From Methanosarcinaceae archaeon (GTDB taxonomy: Archaea; Halobacteriota; Methanosarcinia; Methanosarcinales; Methanosarcinaceae), in assembly GCA_030594665.1 (NCBI GenBank), contig JAUVET010000067.1:1-7212 (forward strand): a DNA stretch of 7,212 nt, in the 5' to 3' direction. The notes below the pieces were generated by a model. It had not been told where the DNA came from. It did no database searches and saw nothing but the letters and a program-made list of their open reading frames with translations. Of this stretch, positions 1 through 7,212 are shown piece by piece. The number at the start of each line of letters is the position of its first letter. Position 1 is the first letter of the stretch. A program made the position numbers and the translations under genes.

Positions 1-48
1 CTGCGCCACTTGCTCCTGCTGTGCTTGCTCTCGGTATCTAAAGAACAT
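1..48. other. Unassigned left edge with two competing short open frames
   Basis: Two frames could each be the edge of a real gene. On the plus strand, frame 3 reads APLAPAVLALGI and stops at TAA 39-41, which could be the hydrophobic C-terminal tail of a gene entering from the left. On the minus strand an ATG at 48-46 opens MFFRYREQAQQEQVAQ and runs off the left edge, with an A/T-rich TATA-like stretch about 30 bases upstream of it. Only 12-16 codons are visible, so neither can be preferred. The T-rich run at about 57-90 could be a poly-T archaeal terminator for a plus-strand gene, or part of a promoter for a minus-strand one. Confidence 0.25.
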
Positions 49-137
49 ACAATATCGTTTTTGTTCCAATGTTTTATTTGTAAGTTTTTTCACTTAGCTT
101 TATGAATTAAGGGATTAAGGTTTGATTCAATCAATAA

Positions 138-145
138 TTTAATAA
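138..145 (+). promoter_or_regulatory. Putative TATA box of hicBA
   Basis: TTTAATAA lies 33 bases before the hicB ATG. With the usual archaeal spacing of about 25 bases from TATA to start site, transcription would begin near 165-168. That leaves a leader just long enough to hold the GTGA ribosome-binding site at 169-172. The element is inferred from sequence pattern and position only. Confidence 0.4.
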
Positions 146-177
146 ACTAAATCACCCTACTAATAAAAGTGAAAAGT

Positions 178-414
178 ATGAGCGATTTCAATATCACAGC
201 TGTAATCTGGAAGGAAGATGATGTATATGTTTCAAAATGCCCGGAACTTGAAGTTGCCAGTGCTGGAGATACACCACAGGAAGCTCTTGCAAACCTAAAA
301 GAGGCAGTTGAATTGTATATTGAAAACGCCAAAGCCTTAGGAATTTTAGATGATTTTGCGCCTTCTTTGCAGGCATCAAATAAGTTTACTTCTAATATTG
401 GGGTTGCAGTGTGA
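178..414 (+). CDS. hicB: HicB-family antitoxin (short form)
   Basis: This is the antitoxin of a HicAB type II toxin-antitoxin pair; it binds and neutralises the HicA mRNA interferase. The 78-residue protein is essentially one HicB domain. It has a strand-forming start (FNITAVIWKEDDVYVSKCPE, residues 4-23), then the family hallmark GDTPQEALANLKEAVELYIE (30-49), then a short C-terminal tail. There is no room for the C-terminal helix-turn-helix or ribbon-helix-helix domain of longer HicB proteins, so autoregulation through this protein is doubtful. ATG 178 is preferred over the in-frame GTG at 169 because GTGA at 169-172 then serves as an archaeal ribosome-binding site with five-base spacing; GTG 169 would add three residues. 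The stop overlaps the start of hicA by four bases, so the pair is translationally coupled. The antitoxin-first order is the reverse of the E. coli hicAB locus. Confidence 0.9.
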   Translation: MSDFNITAVIWKEDDVYVSKCPELEVASAGDTPQEALANLKEAVELYIENAKALGILDDFAPSLQASNKFTSNIGVAV

Positions 415-650
415 GTAAACTTCCTTCGGTCCCATCAAAAAAGATTATAAAAGCTCTTCTTAAATCCGGATTCGACTATGCACCTATTAAAAGCAAAGGC
501 AGTCATACTGCATTAGTCAAAGAAGGAGATTACGGTGAAAAATTTCTGGTAATTATTCCGAAAAGAAGTCCTGTTCCGAAAGGTACTCTTATTTCAATTA
601 TGAAGCAATCCGGATTATCAAGAAACGAATTTATTAAACTGCTGAAATGA
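411..650 (+). CDS. hicA: HicA-family mRNA interferase toxin
   Basis: This is the toxin of the HicAB pair, a small ribonuclease with a double-stranded-RNA-binding-like fold that cleaves mRNA until held by HicB. The 79-residue protein has normal HicA length. It shows the expected N-terminal helix (SKKIIKALLKSGFDYAPIKS), the conserved GSH motif with the presumed catalytic histidine at residue 32, the strand pair around FLVIIPKRSPVPKGTL, and a C-terminal helix ending SGLSRNEFIKLLK. The GTG start at 411 overlaps the hicB TGA (412-414), and there is no closer start. A G-run at 400-403 lies upstream but is a poor ribosome-binding site, so translation probably depends on coupling to hicB. All key residues are present and the gene looks intact. 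Confidence 0.92.
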   Translation: MSKLPSVPSKKIIKALLKSGFDYAPIKSKGSHTALVKEGDYGEKFLVIIPKRSPVPKGTLISIMKQSGLSRNEFIKLLK

Positions 651-790
651 GATTGAGTCATTTCTTATTTACGCATGTTTGGATTCATTCAACATCAGAC
701 CACGAACCATTTATCTGTGCGGATTTCCTTCGGATGCTCTGCAGGGATGTCCCTTTTGTAAATCTTGATTTTTTGTATACTATACTCAAC
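651..790. other. Intergenic, no gene seen
   Basis: The 140 bases after hicA contain no supported gene. The T-rich stretch at about 766-777 is a possible termination region for hicBA. Open frames that cross it run on into the repeats and lack protein-like character. Confidence 0.5.
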
Positions 791-1160
791 TGCCTTCTTT
801 GGTGCACTGAGCCCGCCTGCGTGCGAACCCATGATTCAATTTCCTCACAAGTCCGAATCCGTGTCTGGAAAAATAAGAACCATGCCCCCATCTTCGCCAA
901 TCCACACGCATTTTAAGAGCAAAGCGCAGAACGCGTGCCGATTGGAAAACATGCCAATCACATACGATTATGCCAACAATTTCAGACAGGATTTACAGGA
1001 TGGACAGGATTTGGATGTCGGATTGTGGCATCCTGTCCATCCTGTTCATCCTGTCCATTATACCTGCGCCCCGTAGTGATTTTAGGCACACTGCCTGCGC
1101 GCCAATTCACAAATCACTTCCCCTCCCAAGTTCAAATCTGCGTCTGAAAAAATGATGAAA
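791..1160 (+). repeat. Long repeat unit, copy A
   Basis: First copy of a long diverged unit also found at 1341, 2866 and 3161. In order it has: a leader (791-850) shared with copy B; a linker of the AATCCGTGTCTG type (855-930); the landmark ATTGGAAAACATGCCAA (941-957); a large palindrome; a segment beginning CTGCGCCCCGT (1064-1074); and a tail ending CTGCGTCTGAAAA (1138-1150). The palindrome has left arm 985-1010, right arm 1030-1055 and a 19-base loop, and 24 of 26 positions pair. Each arm is three ACAGGAT (or ATCCTGT) heptamers nine bases apart. No frame here looks like a real protein: what open frames there are simply translate the repeat. Confidence 0.85.
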
Positions 1161-1210
1161 ATGCGGGTGTTCGGCGATGCGGGCGTTGGCCCCGGGGATT
1201 GGTTGGGCTC

Positions 1211-1237
1211 CGCCATGGCTGTTGAAATATATAATTT
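1211..1237 (+). repeat. Left arm of a 27-base perfect inverted repeat
   Basis: The 27 bases beginning CGCCATGGCTG and ending ATATATAATTT are the exact reverse complement of 2012-2038. Weaker similarity continues for about 14 bases beyond the CG-rich end. The arms enclose about 775 bases holding repeat copy B and other short repeats, with no transposase. They could be two copies of a dispersed repeat in opposite orientation or the ends of a non-autonomous element. Confidence 0.85.
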
Positions 1238-1303
1238 GTGTAAAAATAGCTTAAAATCCGTATAAATCAGCGTCTGAAAAAATGATTAAACAGCGCACGG
1301 GAT

Positions 1304-1338
1304 GCGAACCTCGAAGCGAGCACAAAAGCCGCGCCCCA
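1304..1338 (+). repeat. Short direct repeat, first copy
   Basis: The 26 bases at 1313-1338 (beginning GAAGCGAGC, ending CGCGCCCCA) match 2051-2076 in the same direction with one mismatch. Both are preceded within 2-8 bases by GCGAACC. This is a separate small repeat family embedded in the larger field. No function is recognised. Confidence 0.75.
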
Positions 1339-1340
1339 TC

Positions 1341-1770
1341 TGCCTTTTTTGCTGCACTGAGCCCGCCGCCGTTTGAGTGCAGTCATGATTGCAGGCGGGT
1401 GCATCTCTATTAACACGCACAGGTCGCCTGCATGCGAATCCATGATTCAATTCCCTCATAAGTCCGAATCCGTGTCTGGAAAAATAAGAACTACGCCTCC
1501 TATCTTCACCAATCCGCGAGCATTTTAAGAGCAAAACGCAGGATGCGCGCCGATTGGAAAACATGCCAAGCGCATACGATCATGCTGACAATTTCAGACA
1601 GGATTTACTGGATGGACAGGATTTGGATGTCGGATTGTGGCATCCTGTTCATCCCGTCCATTATGTCTGCGCCCCGTGCTGGTTTTGGACACACTGCCTG
1701 CGTGCCAATTCACATCTCATCCCAAGTTCAAATCTGCGTGAATCTGCGTCTGACAAAAAAAATGATGAAA
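1341..1770 (+). repeat. Long repeat unit, copy B, with a 61-base extra segment
   Basis: Closely related to copy A through the leader (TGCCTTTTTTGCTGCACTGA, 1341-1360), the linker (1455-1550), the landmark at 1553, the palindrome and the CTGCGTCTGA tail. Relative to copy A it has 61 additional bases at 1368-1428. These end in CGCC like the sequence just before them, and form a hairpin with arms 1391-1397 and 1425-1431. The palindrome's left arm is 1597-1622 with three heptamers (the middle one altered to ACTGGAT). The right arm is 1642-1658 with only two, so one nine-base step is missing. The 19-base loop is identical to copy A's. Confidence 0.85.
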
Positions 1771-1852
1771 CTACGCCGTATTTTCACTCATCCGCGTTCG
1801 TCCAAAGCGCAAATTGCCGGACGCGCGCCGATTCTGAAACACGCCGACTGCA
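1771..1852 (+). repeat. Truncated repeat unit B'
   Basis: Directly after copy B, the linker CGCCGTATTTTCACTCAT and the landmark region (GCGCGCCGATTCTGAAAC, 1823-1840) reappear 278 bases after the copy B landmark, then the match is lost before the palindrome. The same linker joins copies C and D. It shows that the units are arranged head to tail with a step near 280 bases, and that this one is broken. Confidence 0.7.
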
Positions 1853-1956
1853 AGCGAGCGCGCTGCGTTGCAATCACAGTAGGAGAGCAGAGAGGCAGCA
1901 GGAGTGCGTAAGTGGGAATTTTCAACACGGATTGAAAGTCTGTTTTCTTTTAATTT

Positions 1957-2000
1957 CACCGCAAAGACATTGTTAACGTAACTTTGCGTCCTTTGCGGTG
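1957..2000. repeat. CACCGCAAAG palindromic repeat
   Basis: CACCGCAAAG at 1957-1966 is the exact reverse complement of CTTTGCGGTG at 1991-2000, with a 24-base loop containing GTTAACGTAAC. The right side holds CTTTGCG twice, nine bases apart (1982 and 1991). It is sequence-unrelated to the ACAGGAT palindromes but built the same way. No gene overlaps it convincingly. Confidence 0.75.
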
Positions 2001-2011
2001 CAGTATTTCAT

Positions 2012-2038
2012 AAATTATATATTTCAACAGCCATGGCG
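2012..2038 (-). repeat. Right arm of the 27-base perfect inverted repeat
   Basis: Exact reverse complement of 1211-1237. It directly abuts the CACCGCAAAG palindrome on its left and the second copy of the GAAGCGAGC direct repeat on its right, so several small repeats are packed end to end here. Confidence 0.85.
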
Positions 2039-2076
2039 AACCCCACACCTGAAGCGAGCGCAAAAGCCGCGCCCCA
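2035..2076 (+). repeat. Short direct repeat, second copy
   Basis: Bases 2051-2076 match 1313-1338 at 25 of 26 positions in the same direction. The GCGAACC prefix is present, separated by a slightly longer spacer than in the first copy. The segment overlaps the last bases of the inverted-repeat arm. Confidence 0.75.
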
Positions 2077-2113
2077 GTTGTAGATAACGCCGACCGCACT
2101 CCAATCCACCAAA

Positions 2114-2151
2114 CACACCTCTGTGTCCCTCCGTGCCCTCTGTGGTTTTTT
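2114..2151. repeat. Nine-base-period CTCTGTG repeat
   Basis: Three imperfect nine-base steps (CTCTGTGTC, CCTCCGTGC, CCTCTGTGG) lie at about 2120-2145, followed by a T-run at 2145-2151. Read on the minus strand this is the ACCACAGAGGGCAC-type intergenic repeat I recognise from many bacterial and archaeal genomes, whose function is not known to me. Confidence 0.6.
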
Positions 2152-2218
2152 AATTGTCCCACCCCACCGATTATAATCTACACAATAAAACTTTCTCTGA
2201 ACGCGCGCTGAATGTAAA

Positions 2219-2488
2219 TTACAAATATGCTTTATCGTGATGAATAATATCCAAAAAAAGAACAAGTTTCTTTTCTTCGAAAACTCTGTATGTCAAAACG
2301 AACGAGCCACCGACATGCACTCTGAATCGATCCTCATATCTCAAATGCTTATAATGATATGGATTCTGTATGATCTCGCTTATCTTTTTGCGACACGCTA
2401 CTAACAACGGTTTGTTTTTCTTTTGCAGTTTTTTCAACTTGCGGTCAAGTGTTTCTGTGATCTCGAATTCATATGAAGTAGATAACAT
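2219..2488 (-). CDS. RelE/ParE-superfamily toxin
   Basis: A probable ribosome-associated mRNA interferase, the toxin of a type II toxin-antitoxin pair. The 89-residue protein has RelE-family length and layout: two helices (DRKLKKLQKKNKPLLVACRK, residues 15-34, then KISEIIQNP), then a basic strand segment YEDRFRVHVGGSFVLTYRVF (51-70), then a last strand and tail LVLFLDIIHHDKAYL (75-89). The Arg54/Arg56 pair and the late HHDKAY are typical of RelE/YafQ-like toxins; catalytic residues vary in this family, so activity cannot be proved by eye. ATG 2488 is chosen because it lies two bases after the antitoxin stop; an in-frame TTG at 2494 would overlap that stop by four bases. The operon is antitoxin first, minus strand, and lies inside the repeat field. 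Confidence 0.85.
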   Translation of the reverse strand: MLSTSYEFEITETLDRKLKKLQKKNKPLLVACRKKISEIIQNPYHYKHLRYEDRFRVHVGGSFVLTYRVFEEKKLVLFLDIIHHDKAYL

Positions 2489-2490
2489 GC

Positions 2491-2706
2491 TCAAAGCCCA
2501 AAACGCTGATCAAAGTCATCGATATTCTTTAGGCGCATCCTCTTATCTCGTTTTTCAATTTGATCGAGTTCCTTTAGGTATTCAGGGTTAACTCTTCTGT
2601 GTATGTCACTGTCAATCTCATTAACTGTAAGTTCGATCTGGACTATTTTTTCCTTCAGGAAATTCAGATCGGTTATTATCGAATTCAACATTTCTACTTC
2701 GGACAT
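2491..2706 (-). CDS. Putative RelB-like antitoxin partner of the RelE toxin
   Basis: A 71-residue acidic/basic helical protein immediately upstream of and coupled to the RelE-type toxin, so its role as the cognate antitoxin is inferred mainly from position, size and character. Residues 1-35 form a leucine/isoleucine-rich helix (MLNSIITDLNFLKEKIVQIE) suited to dimerisation. Residues 40-71 (NPEYLKELDQIEKRDKRMRL then NIDDFDQRFGL) are a charged tail of the sort that wraps around RelE toxins. No classic ribbon-helix-helix is obvious. The start is well supported: AGGTGA sits six bases upstream. I do not recognise the exact family. Confidence 0.75.
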   Translation of the reverse strand: MSEVEMLNSIITDLNFLKEKIVQIELTVNEIDSDIHRRVNPEYLKELDQIEKRDKRMRLKNIDDFDQRFGL

Positions 2707-2712
2707 GATATT

Positions 2713-2718
2713 TCACCT
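2713..2718 (-). promoter_or_regulatory. Strong archaeal ribosome-binding site of the antitoxin
   Basis: On the minus strand AGGTGA lies six bases before the antitoxin ATG. It fixes that start and supports an archaeal host, whose 16S 3' end pairs with GGTGA. Confidence 0.75.
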
Positions 2719-2866
2719 GATAGATATTAGTTCTCTTGGAAATATTAAATACATTTCTATGGGCACATGTAAAAAATATGCCGTGTTTGTCAATAAAATT
2801 CCCCATAAAGCACATTTTACAACATTTTTCATCCTTTTCTAAACCACAAAACTCACACAATTTCAA
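2719..2866 (-). other. Cysteine-rich open frame upstream of the antitoxin, uncertain
   Basis: One minus-strand frame in this unique stretch reads LCEFCGLEKDEKCCKMCFMG followed by NFIDKHGIFFTCAHRN, giving a C-x2-C ... CC-x2-C ... C-x-H spacing that resembles a small zinc-binding domain. Against a real gene: the frame's ATG (2902) lies in repeat copy C, there is no ribosome-binding site, the far end overlaps the antitoxin in another frame, and the antitoxin's own TATA-like box lies inside it. It may be a decayed fragment or chance. Confidence 0.2.
2743..2751 (-). promoter_or_regulatory. Putative TATA box of the antitoxin-RelE operon
   Basis: TATTTAATA on the minus strand lies about 37 bases before the antitoxin ATG. 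The expected start site near 2720 would place the AGGTGA ribosome-binding site at the very beginning of the transcript. Assigned by pattern and spacing only. Confidence 0.35.
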
Positions 2867-3160
2867 GCGAAAAATACAGGACGCGCGCAGATTGGAAAAC
2901 ATGCCAATCGCATACGATTATGCCAACAATTTCAGACAGGATTTACATGATGGACAGGATTTGAATGGCGTTTTGTGACATCCTGTCAATCCTGTCCAGT
3001 ATGTCTGCGCCCCGTGCTGATTTTAAGCACACTGCCTGCGCGCCAACTCACAATTCACTTCCCCTCCCAAGTTCAAATCTGCGTAAATCCGTGTGACCTG
3101 CACGCCTCACAGGCGTAGCAGGCACCCAACTCCGTAGGAGGTGAGTGTATCTGCGTCTAA
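2866..3160 (+). repeat. Long repeat unit, copy C
   Basis: Same family and direction as copies A and B, but on the other side of the RelE locus. The landmark is at 2891-2907. The palindrome has left arm 2935-2960 (three heptamers, the middle one ACATGAT), a 19-base loop, and right arm 2980-2998 (two heptamers). The loop sequence (TTGAATGGCGTTTTGTGAC) differs clearly from A/B and nearly matches copy D, so C and D form a subfamily. Between the AATCCGTG and CTGCGTCT parts of its tail sits an extra hairpin pair of about 50 bases. Confidence 0.85.
3097..3147. repeat. Tandem hairpin pair nested in repeat copy C
   Basis: Two adjacent hairpins. The first has arms 3097-3107 and 3111-3122 with loop CAC; the stem is CCTGC/GCAGG plus ACGCCT/AGGCGT with a one-base bulge. 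The second has arms 3123-3133 and 3137-3147 with loop GTA and 9 of 11 pairs. Copies A and B lack this segment at the same point of the tail, so it is an insertion into, or deletion from, a pre-existing unit. It resembles small REP-like hairpin elements, although no transposase is nearby. Confidence 0.7.
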
Positions 3161-3405
3161 AAAAAATGATTGAACTGCGCCGTATTTTCACTCATCTGCG
3201 CCCGCTCAAAGCGCAAAATACAGGACGCGTGCCGATTGGAAAACATGCCAATTGCATGCGATTCTGCCAACAATTTCAGACAGGATTTACATGATGGACA
3301 GGATTAGAATGGCGTTTTGTGACATCCTGTCAATCCTGTTCATCCCGTCCATTATGTTTGCGCCACATATCGATTTTGGATACACCGCCTGCGCGTCAAC
3401 TCACC
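3161..3405 (+). repeat. Long repeat unit, copy D
   Basis: Follows copy C directly through the linker CGCCGTATTTTCACTCAT; the landmark at 3235 lies 344 bases after copy C's. The palindrome has left arm 3279-3304 (three heptamers), a 19-base loop, and right arm 3324-3350 (three heptamers, the last altered to ATCCCGT). The match fades in the GCGCGTCAACTCACCA region, so the unit is truncated before the CTGCGTCTG tail. About 120 ordinary A+T-rich bases then separate it from the end of rqcH. Confidence 0.85.
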
Positions 3406-3526
3406 AACCGAGTGTTACATATTTGGCAATGGCCATCATATTGTTCTTTCAAAAACTCTTTTCCATTAATATGTCTGCCACTCTTTAACTTAATCTACAA
3501 TTATTATCAACTTAGTACCCTTAATT

Positions 3527-5518
3527 TCATTCCTTAATATCCGATTCACCCGGAGGCAGCATCATAGCAATAAGATCAGGAGACGCAATCTGCTTTACAA
3601 ACTGCACATCCTTGAGTTCATCAACATAGATGCGGGATATTTTTTTAGATATATCGTTCTGGTTGAATTTCCCCGGAACGACCTCGATAACGTGTTTGGC
3701 ATGATTTCGCACAGCAGACACCGGACCACCAATTACCCGCGTCTCTCCTTTAAGTTCAAGTCCGATCGCAACCCCTACCTGCACATCCCTGTAATAATTC
3801 CGCTCGCCACGTATAACAAACGAACCTTTGTTTAAGAACTCGCCCGATTCTGGCGTCTTTGACACCTGTTCGGGCTTGATCCAGTAGCAGTCACCACTGA
3901 ATTGTCCGGATTTCCAGACACTTGAATACGATACAACAAATTGTGCCGCTTCCTGCAATGTGGTTTCAGGTATTTCCTTGCCCTCTGTCCTGATAACTGT
4001 CATCGGGGCACCTGGTGTTTGGGTATGGAATGCGATATCGCGTTTTTCCATGTATTTACTCACAATCTCTTCATTGGTATCGGCATTCCGCCCACCAACA
4101 ACAAGGAATCCGTCGGATGACACAAACCACCTGAACCGGTCGTACCAGTGTTTCTTGCGCATGACCTTTCGCCGTTTTGGTGCCCGTTTTTCCTTTTTCT
4201 GCATAGCAAGTTTTGTATGCTCGATCGCACGAAGGGCACCATCGCGCTTTTTCATGAGCTTTTTCGACTTTTCGTAATAGACCTGCGCATTTTGTGGAAC
4301 TGTCTTGCGTATGTCGATCGTCGCATTTGTACCTTCAAGGTCAACAACAACCGTGCCTTCGGCAGAATTGATACTCATAATGATCTTGGCGGCTGGAAGT
4401 GTATCCTTTGCCTGTTTTAGTATCGACTTGATCTCATCCCATGAATACCCTTTTTTCCTTGCACCGTTTAGAACTTCCAGTAATTCCTCGATCGGTTGGT
4501 AATTCGCATATACCTGTTCTGCAATTGCCGTGAATTTTTCTGATTTGGTCTCAAAGTTCATGATCGCAGACTGCTGCTGAAGCAACCTTCGCTCAAATAT
4601 GTTAACTTTTTCTTTCTTGACCACCTGTACATGCTCGGCCACGGATTCGGCTGACAGTTTGCCAAAAAACTCATCCAGTGCACTATTGAATGAATCAAAA
4701 TACTGTTTTTCAAAATCGCGGTATTGTTCAAGTTCAAAGGGCACCACATTATGGGGTTCCAGTTCTCCGTTCACCTCTTTTTTGATTACCTGCGGTTTAA
4801 GCTCGCCTGACAACAGTGGCAAAAATACATCTTTCAACGAACCATGAATTGCAGAAATATCTTGCGGGGATACGTCGTTCGCAATCATGTTCTTATCGAC
4901 TCCTCCGCGCAGGCAAACCTCTTCTGCCAGCACTCCACCGAGATTGAAACGATTTGCAATCGTCCTGACCACATTCTCATCAGACGATGATAATGCATCT
5001 GCAAGTTCATCTTCACCTGCATCCAGTGGGCTGATCTTTGCTTCCGGATATTCGTATATCTCGCCGCTTCGTATTCTTCGTCCCTTGAAAGTCACCGGAT
5101 TCATAGGGAGTATGATCTTGCGTTCACTGTCAAGCAGCACAATATTGCCCCGTGAGAAGAGTTCTGCAACAAGTATTGTTTCAATACCGCCACGTATTAT
5201 CCCGAATTCGATTATTCGATCAAAATCATATTGTTTGGCAAAGGTGATGCGCCCTCCAAGTATGTGTTTTCGGAGTAGCATTGGGAATGAATGCGGCATT
5301 TTTGGGCTTGGGCGAATGTGTTCACTCATGTGTGCCCGTTTTCCGGCTTCTATCACTAGATTGTGCCTGCCCCTGCCAAATAGGAAAAGGCTAATCCGGA
5401 TCTCATCGGGCACGGGCTGGTATATTTTGCCAATCTTTGCATCGTTTAATGAGTGTTTACCTTCGGTAAACTCTGATACAAGAGCAGCCACATCGGCACT
5501 TGTCATTTCCTGTTTCAT
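3527..5518 (-). CDS. rqcH: Ribosome quality-control protein RqcH (NEMF/Rqc2/Tae2, NFACT family)
   Basis: Binds the 50S subunit carrying a stalled peptidyl-tRNA and, in the family, directs template-free C-terminal tailing (alanine tails in bacteria, CAT tails in yeast) so that the stuck chain is released or degraded. The 663 residues match archaeal family length. The NFACT-N domain occupies about 1-180 and includes Asp9 and Asp100-Arg101 (YDFDRIIEFG), which appear to correspond to the Asp9 and Asp98-Arg99 residues needed for tailing by yeast Rqc2. A helix-hairpin-helix follows at about 185-215 (ANRFNLGGVLAEEVCLRGG), then long helices at about 262-340 and 405-440 forming the coiled-coil arm. 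A very basic stretch (KRAPKRRKVMRKK, 444-456) leads into NFACT-R at about 457-560 (WFVSSDGFLVVGGRNADTNE), then a C-terminal region to 663. No ribosome-binding site precedes ATG 5518 and a TATA-like box lies about 30 bases upstream, so the message is probably leaderless. Met5 is an alternative start. The gene appears intact. Confidence 0.95.
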   Translation of the reverse strand: MKQEMTSADVAALVSEFTEGKHSLNDAKIGKIYQPVPDEIRISLFLFGRGRHNLVIEAGKRAHMSEHIRPSPKMPHSFPMLLRKHILGGRITFAKQYDFDRIIEFGIIRGGIETILVAELFSRGNIVLLDSERKIILPMNPVTFKGRRIRSGEIYEYPEAKISPLDAGEDELADALSSSDENVVRTIANRFNLGGVLAEEVCLRGGVDKNMIANDVSPQDISAIHGSLKDVFLPLLSGELKPQVIKKEVNGELEPHNVVPFELEQYRDFEKQYFDSFNSALDEFFGKLSAESVAEHVQVVKKEKVNIFERRLLQQQSAIMNFETKSEKFTAIAEQVYANYQPIEELLEVLNGARKKGYSWDEIKSILKQAKDTLPAAKIIMSINSAEGTVVVDLEGTNATIDIRKTVPQNAQVYYEKSKKLMKKRDGALRAIEHTKLAMQKKEKRAPKRRKVMRKKHWYDRFRWFVSSDGFLVVGGRNADTNEEIVSKYMEKRDIAFHTQTPGAPMTVIRTEGKEIPETTLQEAAQFVVSYSSVWKSGQFSGDCYWIKPEQVSKTPESGEFLNKGSFVIRGERNYYRDVQVGVAIGLELKGETRVIGGPVSAVRNHAKHVIEVVPGKFNQNDISKKISRIYVDELKDVQFVKQIASPDLIAMMLPPGESDIKE

Positions 5519-5543
5519 ATTGGGAGTATAATGTTTTGGTTAG

Positions 5544-5551
5544 GCTATAAG
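5544..5551 (-). promoter_or_regulatory. Putative rqcH promoter (TATA box, leaderless transcript)
   Basis: On the minus strand CCTTATAGCC preceded by an A-rich BRE-like GGATAAA lies about 30 bases before the rqcH ATG. With archaeal spacing, transcription would begin within a few bases of the start codon, consistent with the absence of a ribosome-binding site. Confidence 0.4.
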
Positions 5552-5803
5552 GTTTATCCAGGATTTTTTTGGTAATTTGAGCATACTAATCTCATAGGCA
5601 TGTCAGGGCACCTTGCTAACCATAGTTGTGTAAGTTGTATGCCAATGTAAAAATCATCACTCTGTTGGGCAATTTGGCATCGATAAAAAGATTTTCAATT
5701 GCATGTCGCATTTTAAATAGTAATACTGGTAAAGCTACGAGATATCCTTTTGCCTAAGTTGAGGGATGGAGAAGTGAAGGTTAAATGATTGGAGTAGAGA
5801 ATA

Positions 5804-5811
5804 ATTTATAA
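5804..5811 (+). promoter_or_regulatory. Putative promoter of the DUF262-ATPase operon
   Basis: TTTATAAG in an A/T-rich context lies 30-37 bases before the DUF262 ATG. The transcript would start around 5830, where GAGGT (5830-5834), six bases from the ATG, can act as ribosome-binding site. Only this box serves the operon, because the next gene overlaps the first. Confidence 0.5.
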
Positions 5812-5840
5812 GTATTGCAGTAATCAATAGAGGTTAGAAC

Positions 5841-7001
5841 ATGACCCATATTGATAGTAATCTTGATGAAAGCAACAGAGAAATCATTAGTGAATCTCAA
5901 GAGTTTGATGAAAAAGAGGAAAAAGACCTACAAGATGAATTTACCGATCTTGAAGAACCATTTAATCCTTCACAGATTGATATTCAGGCCGTTCAAACAA
6001 CATTAGATACGCTTATAAAAAGATTAAGTCATGAAGAAATTGATTTACAGCCAGATTTTCAAAGGGAACAAAATCTGTGGAATCCCACATTTAAAAGTCG
6101 TCTTATAGAATCATTATTAATCCGTTTTCCTTTGCCTGCCTTCTATTTTGATGCATCAAATGAAGATGAATGGCAAGTTGTTGATGGTTTGCAACGCTTA
6201 TCCATCATCAAAAGTTTTGTTGTTGACAAAAAGATGAAATTGAATAAACTTGAGTTTCTCAAACAATTTAACAACAAAACTTTTGATGACTTGCCACGAA
6301 ATATGCAACGTCGCATTGAAGAAGCACAAGTGACTATGTACCTAATAAAACCTGGAACACCATCCAATGTTAAATTCAGTTTGTTCTATAGAATTAATAC
6401 TGGGGGAGTGCAATTAAAGCCACAGGAAATACGTCATGCAATTAGTCAGGATGTAAATGATGGTCAAGCTTCTAAATTCTTAAAAGAAATTACTAAAACG
6501 GATATTTTTCAGAAAGTTGGGAGAGTTTCAGGAAAAAGGATGCTTGATAATGAATTGGTTTTGCGCTTTATGGCTCTCAAACTTACAACTTATAAAGATT
6601 ATAAAGCTCCCATGATTAGTTTTCTAAATGACGCAATGGAACAGCTAGGTAGAGCTGAACCTAGGCAATTGAACTCTTTACGCACAGATATACTCAAAGC
6701 ACTCAATTTATCTTACTATATTTTTGGAGACAATGCTTTTAGAAAATCATTGGTTGAAGATAATAAAAGTAAGGTGTTAAACCGTGCTCTTTTTGAAGCT
6801 GTAACAGTTCTTTTTTCTGAATTATCAGAAAATGATAGCCAGTTTTTACTTAAAAACAAGAAGGATTTCGTGGAATCTTTTAAGCAATTATTCGAAGACG
6901 GTAAATTTTATTCATCAATTACAGTTTCGACTACAGACTCTGCAAATGTTGTTTATCGTTTCACCGAAATATCAACTGTAATCAATAGGTATATAGCATG
7001 A
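5841..7001 (+). CDS. DUF262 (GmrSD N-domain/ParB-like) protein
   Basis: A member of the DUF262 family, the ParB/Srx-like nuclease or NTP-using domain best known from GmrS/GmrSD type IV restriction enzymes and found in many defence islands. The 386 residues begin with a strongly acidic, probably disordered leader (about 1-45). The domain then shows the family's marks in order: DLQPDFQREQNLW (68-80, the usual P-x-FQR-x-x-x-W motif), WQVVDGLQRLSII (111-123, the DGxQRL signature at Asp115-Arg119), and FYRINTGGVQLKPQEIRHA (182-200, the N-T-G-G motif). The remainder to 386 is helical. There is no HNH/DUF1524 C-terminal half, so this is a stand-alone GmrS-like half. Its stop overlaps the ATG of an ATPase by four bases, which implies that the two proteins work together. 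It is visibly richer in A+T than rqcH, consistent with recent acquisition. The exact biochemical activity cannot be read from the sequence. Confidence 0.88.
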   Translation: MTHIDSNLDESNREIISESQEFDEKEEKDLQDEFTDLEEPFNPSQIDIQAVQTTLDTLIKRLSHEEIDLQPDFQREQNLWNPTFKSRLIESLLIRFPLPAFYFDASNEDEWQVVDGLQRLSIIKSFVVDKKMKLNKLEFLKQFNNKTFDDLPRNMQRRIEEAQVTMYLIKPGTPSNVKFSLFYRINTGGVQLKPQEIRHAISQDVNDGQASKFLKEITKTDIFQKVGRVSGKRMLDNELVLRFMALKLTTYKDYKAPMISFLNDAMEQLGRAEPRQLNSLRTDILKALNLSYYIFGDNAFRKSLVEDNKSKVLNRALFEAVTVLFSELSENDSQFLLKNKKDFVESFKQLFEDGKFYSSITVSTTDSANVVYRFTEISTVINRYIA

Positions 7002-7212
7002 TATCAAATATATATATAAGGAATTTCAAAAGTCTTAATGATATTGATTTTGTTCTAAATAATCTTACTTTAATTGCAGGTAAAAACAATGTAGGTAAGT
7101 CATCTTTAATACAGGTCTTGCTTTTACTTCGGCAATCTTATGAAAAAGGAACACTTTTAGAATCAGGTCTTCTTTTACAAGGAGATTACATAAAGATAGG
7201 TAAAGGAAAAGA
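6998..7212 (+). CDS. AAA ATPase, OLD/DUF3696-like, 5' part only
   Basis: The first 71 residues of an ABC/SMC-type AAA ATPase; the gene continues beyond the right edge. It begins MISNIYIRNFKSLNDIDFVL, the usual first strands of RecF/OLD-like ATPases. The Walker A loop GKNNVGKSS follows at residues 28-36 with Lys34, then LIQVLLLLRQSYEKGTLLES and LLLQGDYIKIGKGK (57-70). This LLLRQS ... LxLQGDYIxIGxGKD pattern recalls the DUF3696/AAA_15 ATPases that partner DUF262 proteins. Walker B, signature and any C-terminal nuclease (Toprim or other) are outside the window. ATG 6998 overlaps the DUF262 stop (ATGA), so the pair is translationally coupled. Confidence 0.88.
   Translation, partial: MISNIYIRNFKSLNDIDFVLNNLTLIAGKNNVGKSSLIQVLLLLRQSYEKGTLLESGLLLQGDYIKIGKGK

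Follow-up and report, generated by a model that had tools for sequence, protein, structure and literature searches.

The nsn genes and the Menshen system

The window, by which we mean the whole 7,212-nucleotide stretch of Methanosarcinaceae archaeon DNA analysed here (contig JAUVET010000067.1, positions 1 to 7,212), ends on the right with a complete gene, nsnA, and the beginning of a second, nsnB, next to the ribosome rescue gene rqcH (Table 1). We consider it likely that these are the first gene and about one-fifth of the second of a Menshen (NsnABC) operon, sitting as mobile cargo next to rqcH in an ANME-3 archaeon (a group of methane oxidisers), with NsnC as its effector and the mechanism proposed below; this reading draws on the gene set, its order and overlap, the pairing of the genes, signs of mobility, the predicted NsnC fold and its conserved residues. 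NsnA, NsnB and NsnC are presumably the gene names of the Menshen system, and both system and naming reportedly go back to Millman et al. 2022.

Table 1. Position of the nsn genes, their leader and the neighbouring rqcH gene in the window
Feature	Position	Strand	Description
nsnA	5841-7001	+	386 aa, ATG start, complete; DUF262 (GmrSD_N) protein
nsnB	6998-7212	+	first 71 aa (~1/5 of gene); ABC/OLD-type AAA ATPase, truncated by right window edge
Putative archaeal promoter (TTTATAA) and GAGG ribosome-binding site of nsnA	5760-5840	+	sequence reading
rqcH	3527-5518	-	NFACT/RqcH ribosome rescue factor; divergent chromosomal neighbour, site marker outside the system

The product of nsnA carries the motifs PDFQR (residues 71-75), DGLQRL (115-120) and RINTGG (184-189) that the original prediction had read in a complete DUF262 protein, and it matches GmrSD_N (DUF262, PF03235) at 71.5 bits against a cut-off of 33.2. 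Asp-115, Gly-116, Gln-118 and Arg-119 are invariant in all 16 sequences of an NsnA alignment picked by hand (A3), and Pfam finds no DUF1524/HNH half at E 0.01, as the same prediction had held. PADLOC places the protein best in its NsnA family (410 bits), followed by PD-T4-2_A (128 bits); the NsnA profile alone is unspecific and also matches L023, which like L022 is an archaeal DUF262 protein of different architecture with a C-terminal stretch that looks HNH-like by eye. NsnA relatives make up at least 7405 of the 7999 matches listed. Among the best matches listed with an organism name, those outside the Methanosarcinaceae are bacterial, such as Flavobacterium P0016 (68% identity), against 37% identity for the NsnA of the archaeon G367, which suggests that the gene has been transferred between domains.

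The TGA stop of nsnA and the ATG of nsnB overlap in ATGA, the nsnB reading frame opening at 6998 with an intact Walker A motif (GKNNVGKSS), just as had been described. The visible start of NsnB matches AAA_15 (49.6 bits against a Pfam cut-off of 32.1) and, within PADLOC, NsnB best (71.5 bits) and AriA next (48.1 bits). The claim of a DUF3696-like ATPase start was right as to the ATPase, the visible part being AAA_15; DUF3696 itself lies at the C terminus of NsnB (residues 318-369 of the L001 protein described below) and therefore beyond the window edge. A single promoter, also claimed, is plausible, as a putative TTTATAA box and GAGG precede nsnA in a leader nearly identical between the window and L001. 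The L001 leader also holds a 132-base insertion (4043-4174) with perfect 18-base inverted ends, which is absent from the window and resembles a small mobile element.

L001 is a Methanosarcinaceae metagenome-assembled genome of ANME-3 (anaerobic methanotrophic archaea), in which nsnA, nsnB and a third gene (386, 372 and 304 residues) occupy the strand opposite to that of a pelota-type gene and rqcH. Its NsnA is 90% identical to that of the window, the one close relative among the species genomes, and over the 71 shared codons of nsnB there is no amino acid change (nonsynonymous divergence 0). PADLOC names the three products NsnA, NsnB (387 bits) and NsnC (146 bits), the same families in the same order as in Menshen. 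In G394, from the same genus, all three genes likewise adjoin rqcH, with an NsnC 93% identical to that of L001, and the more distant archaeon G367 has a complete three-gene set (locus L021). Our evidence on NsnC for the present locus comes from the siblings L001 and G394, the window ending before the third gene.

The locus is an archaeal representative of the already known Menshen system, with a predicted role in protection against viruses. This supports the original prediction of an archaeal defence system of two or three genes, in which Menshen had been named: NsnA and NsnB are named by PADLOC in the window and NsnC comes third in L001. The accessible portion of a 2023 review (PMC10952713) describes Menshen as pairing a DUF262 gene, which is required for phage resistance, with a partner of OLD type, and leaves the mechanism open. 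Downstream of nsnB, where housekeeping genes would have spoken against a defence operon, L001 has nsnC, followed by a small DUF7557-type gene and then the housekeeping gene priS.

Full-length L001 NsnB matches AAA_15, AAA_21, DUF3696 and other P-loop families and no TOPRIM family at E 0.1; an OLD/Gabija nuclease was rejected for want of a TOPRIM domain after the ATPase domain. Its other PADLOC matches are HEC-03B (136 bits) and AriA (100.5 bits), and a PDB sequence search returned the OLD-family endonuclease 6p74 (E 1.7e-6) and AriA chains (E 0.0085). Neither NsnB nor NsnC of L001 has a DUF1524 HNH match in Pfam.

An NsnA-like match occurs in 13 of the 392 genomes of a phylum survey (E 1e-20), and among those 13 NsnB adjoins the NsnA-like gene only in L001 and G367, some of the contigs being short. 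Scanning viral contigs with an NsnB alignment, without NsnA, gave 22 loci, and all 22 have an NsnA-like gene directly upstream on the same strand, the conserved DUF262-ATPase pairing that had been expected of homologue neighbourhoods. Seven of these loci are duplicates or near-duplicates in three groups (L035-L037, L038-L039 and L051-L052). NsnA is divergent in two loci, L047 and L054 (74 and 31 bits). A third open reading frame follows nsnB in 20 of the 22, the remaining two contigs ending there, and NsnC is the best PADLOC family for each of the 14 third genes tested (27 were collected). Of six plasmid regions, one holds a DUF262-HEPN pair of the PD-T4-2 kind; in the other five a third gene accompanies those for DUF262 and DUF3696.

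Some of the individual loci have features of their own. L047 and L054 appear to be divergent Menshen-like loci, with a DUF262 protein that lacks the usual motifs by eye and an NsnC that lacks the RelE-type motif. The NsnA proteins of L041, L042, L044, L046, L053 and L055 are 637-658 residues long, with about 230 residues ahead of the NsnA-matching part in the two that were scanned (L041 and L053). In L003, on an Acinetobacter plasmid, transposases flank the operon on either side, a gene annotated for lipid A modification lies upstream of it and the BREX gene brxL downstream. A bacterial Menshen operon is also carried by a Psychrobacter plasmid (L002).

The predicted fold of NsnC

The original prediction placed an effector just past the right edge, and the third gene of the siblings, nsnC, is indeed the best effector candidate of the operon. 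We found 18 NsnC relatives among 470 candidates. The C-terminal domain has a RelE-type fold in the predicted structure, and in both NsnC models the glutamate comes after a domain strand behind the long helices, the arginine starts a long strand and the last histidine follows the final strand. In an alignment of 19 of the 27 NsnC proteins (A4; 12-28% identity to the ANME-3 protein), His-274 and Arg-283 are, apart from the start methionine, the invariant residues, with Glu-246 and His-301 nearly so; the near-duplicates L036, L037 and L039 and the motif-less L047, L049, L051, L052 and L054 were left out, and the invariance is thus conditional on this selection. Two further alignments comprise 16 of the 18 matches plus L001 (A1) and 14 of the 18 matches plus 5 loci (A5).

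YoeB is described as using Glu46 as general base and His83 as general acid, with Arg65 stabilising the transition state (PMC3814384). When the first NsnC model is aligned with YoeB (2a6r_C), residues 301 and 83 are the last ones aligned, and the spacing from arginine to histidine is 18 in both NsnC and YoeB (23 in L043). From the order along the fold we infer that Glu-246 corresponds to Glu46, and the predicted order of Glu-246, Arg-283 and His-301 would then match that of Glu46, Arg65 and His83, by order only. These features would speak more for an RNase role of the NsnC C terminus than for one like that of ParE, which poisons gyrase. The motif pattern occurs in 22 of 27 NsnC proteins (20 of 24 without the duplicates L036, L039 and L052), in none of 826 other open reading frames and in 14 of 54000 shuffles, counts that are descriptive because the pattern was written after viewing the sequences.

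Several results weigh against this assignment, and with it against our overall reading. NsnC has no RelE-type match by Pfam or by PDB sequence search; Foldseek E-values are weak; 5 of the 27 proteins (L047, L049, L051, L052 and L054) lack the motif; the ANME-3 NsnC lacks an acidic residue before His-274; and when NsnC C termini were compared by hhalign with an alignment of 30 archaeal RelE/ParE sequences, a low P (1.4e-4) was obtained for one of three profiles, that of ANME-3. The motif-less L049 and L051 gave P 0.0045 against the same archaeal profile, over the start of the domain. For the second NsnC model, Foldseek returned no RelE-type entry among the best 50 matches listed, and in VIA-align on the candidates a YoeB/ParE shared the first rank with matches of the N-terminal part, which in this model resembles PIN/Rossmann-like folds. 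A search of viral structures gave as its top match a 'Cytotoxic translational repressor' (E 0.065).

The priority of the proposed RelE-type effector role of NsnC is uncertain. A literature search on Menshen with RelE yielded, among the matches listed, none stating a RelE effector; one on the names NsnA, NsnB and NsnC yielded, among the matches listed, none about defence; and no paper combining ANME and Menshen was found. The title of Li et al. 2025 (NAR, gkaf357) suggests an in-depth treatment of Menshen domains.

The rqcH site and the rest of the window

The window rqcH matches RqcH_arch of NCBIfam at 793 bits (cut-off 400), and rqcH was seen in five of the seven genomes of the genus. The operon stands beside it in the window, L001 and G394. 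G393 and G395 represent the empty state: about 75 bases separate the rqcH start from the small DUF7557-type gene, priS comes next, and nsn genes are absent there; in G397, 621 bases precede rqcH and contain no nsnA match. In L001 the operon sits between rqcH and the DUF7557-type gene, and on its far side (7993-8246) there is a partial, internally deleted second rqcH 5' end, 92-94% identical to the intact copy and perhaps a scar of operon entry. On the far side of the G394 operon neither a DUF7557-type gene nor priS was found, and the rqcH flank alone is therefore common to both sites.

Among the window, L001 and G394, rqcH shows a synonymous divergence of 0.48-0.78, nsnA one of 0.16-0.19 and the nsnB start one of 0.14-0.25; the pair L001 and G394 gives 0.13 for nsnB, 0.12 for nsnC and 0.74 for the pelota-type gene. 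Most simply, the operon would have been exchanged among lineages more recently than the neighbouring genes diverged; gene conversion could leave the same pattern. These divergence values, together with the absence of the operon from genus mates, led us to reject a housekeeping role.

The remainder of the window holds other features. A HicA toxin match (PF07927, 40 bits against 27) falls in the pair 169-414 and 411-650 (+), in which the upstream gene overlaps hicA by 4 bases and is HicB-like at sub-cut-off scores only. A ParE/RelE-type toxin match (PF05016, 32 bits against 23) falls in 2219-2494 and 2491-2706 (-), with a 71-residue gene directly upstream that has no Pfam match and is perhaps an antitoxin. 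Much of the region left of rqcH is filled by a repeat of about 200-330 bases in four dispersed copies (814-3407), 63-80% identical to the first copy (224 bases, ungapped), which itself contains an array of the 9-mer CATCCTGTC. No transfer RNA and no Rfam family above the gathering score was found anywhere in the window.

A proposed mechanism and its alternatives

By analogy, NsnA with its GmrS-type nucleotide pocket may sense invading or modified DNA, and NsnB, whose ATPase is of ABC/OLD type with no TOPRIM nuclease domain detected, would hold and gate the effector, possibly in the manner of AriA in PARIS. Released NsnC would then cut mRNA at the ribosome through its C-terminal RelE/YoeB-fold domain, and the resulting stop of translation in the infected cell would be a suicidal or dormancy response. 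As a general statement, we give about an even chance to Menshen being a DNA-sensing, ATPase-gated system whose effectors (NsnC) are diversified mRNA interferases of the RelE superfamily that retain the catalytic core while the remainder of the protein turns over rapidly, and to the ANME-3 module being swapped between lineages beside rqcH.

The known systems that resemble the locus each depart from it in some part. The host here is archaeal and the operon stands beside rqcH, whereas the bacterial Menshen relatives examined are on plasmids, and the window stops inside nsnB. PARIS is similar in that NsnB matches AriA and its ATPase would gate a toxic effector, but AriA is not nearest to NsnB (HEC-03B and 6p74 score better), AriB is a TOPRIM enzyme and, to our knowledge, PARIS has no DUF262 protein. 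PD-T4-2 has a related DUF262 protein with a HEPN partner (for example L007), in place of the ATPase and NsnC found here, and membership was rejected on that ground. The predicted NsnC C-terminal fold and its E/R/H order recall YoeB/RelE toxins and Cami1. RelE-type toxins are known mainly from toxin-antitoxin pairs and from Cami1, in which the toxin is gated by a CARF domain; unlike in YoeB/RelE toxins, the domain in NsnC is fused to some 180 residues on its N-terminal side, and its proposed gating is by NsnA and NsnB, not by an antitoxin. GmrSD, BrxU and SspE share the DUF262 domain and nucleotide-pocket motif but, in the accessible portion of the review, have a DUF1524 nuclease domain (PMC10952713), which was found in none of NsnA, NsnB and NsnC; GmrSD type IV restriction was rejected, no DUF1524 HNH half having been found.

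Menshen could also work with NsnC as the sensor or adaptor; its RelE-like fold would then serve as an inactive scaffold, and NsnA or NsnB would do the damage. No other part of the system varies nearly as much as NsnC (18 relatives among 470 candidates, against at least 7405 among the 7999 listed for NsnA), which would suit a sensor of changing viral proteins. The N-terminal part of NsnC is PIN/Rossmann-like in the second model, and the review, in its accessible portion, terms the Menshen partner a predicted OLD nuclease (PMC10952713). Yet the best conserved positions in the 19 chosen NsnC proteins are polar, catalytic-type residues of the C-terminal domain, and neither NsnA nor NsnB yielded a TOPRIM or HNH domain. 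We think this arrangement unlikely.

Far less probable is a host regulatory or ribosome-rescue module linked to rqcH. A ribosome-linked toxin fold beside a rescue gene, at the identical position in the window, L001 and G394, speaks for such a link, but two genus mates have no operon at rqcH, divergence among lineages is far lower for the nsn genes than for rqcH, and elsewhere the set is found on plasmids and viral contigs. That nsnA is a stand-alone restriction factor of the GmrSD kind and only by chance the neighbour of an unrelated ATPase is scarcely credible: the DUF262 domain is genuine and 11 of the 13 archaeal relatives in the phylum survey have no adjacent NsnB, some on short contigs, but the ATGA overlap, the three-gene set in L001, G394 and G367 and the 22 of 22 pairing in the NsnB-side search already contradict it.

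On the Menshen reading, an archaeal anti-virus operon occurs at one and the same rqcH flank in some members of an uncultured genus of methane oxidisers and is missing there in others. If the effector proposal is true, ABC-ATPase-gated defence would be linked to RelE-type toxins, and the apparent RNA-cutting toxin fold of the last gene would explain the shutdown of infected cells. Three named residues of NsnC (Glu-246, Arg-283 and His-301) make the effector proposal directly testable.
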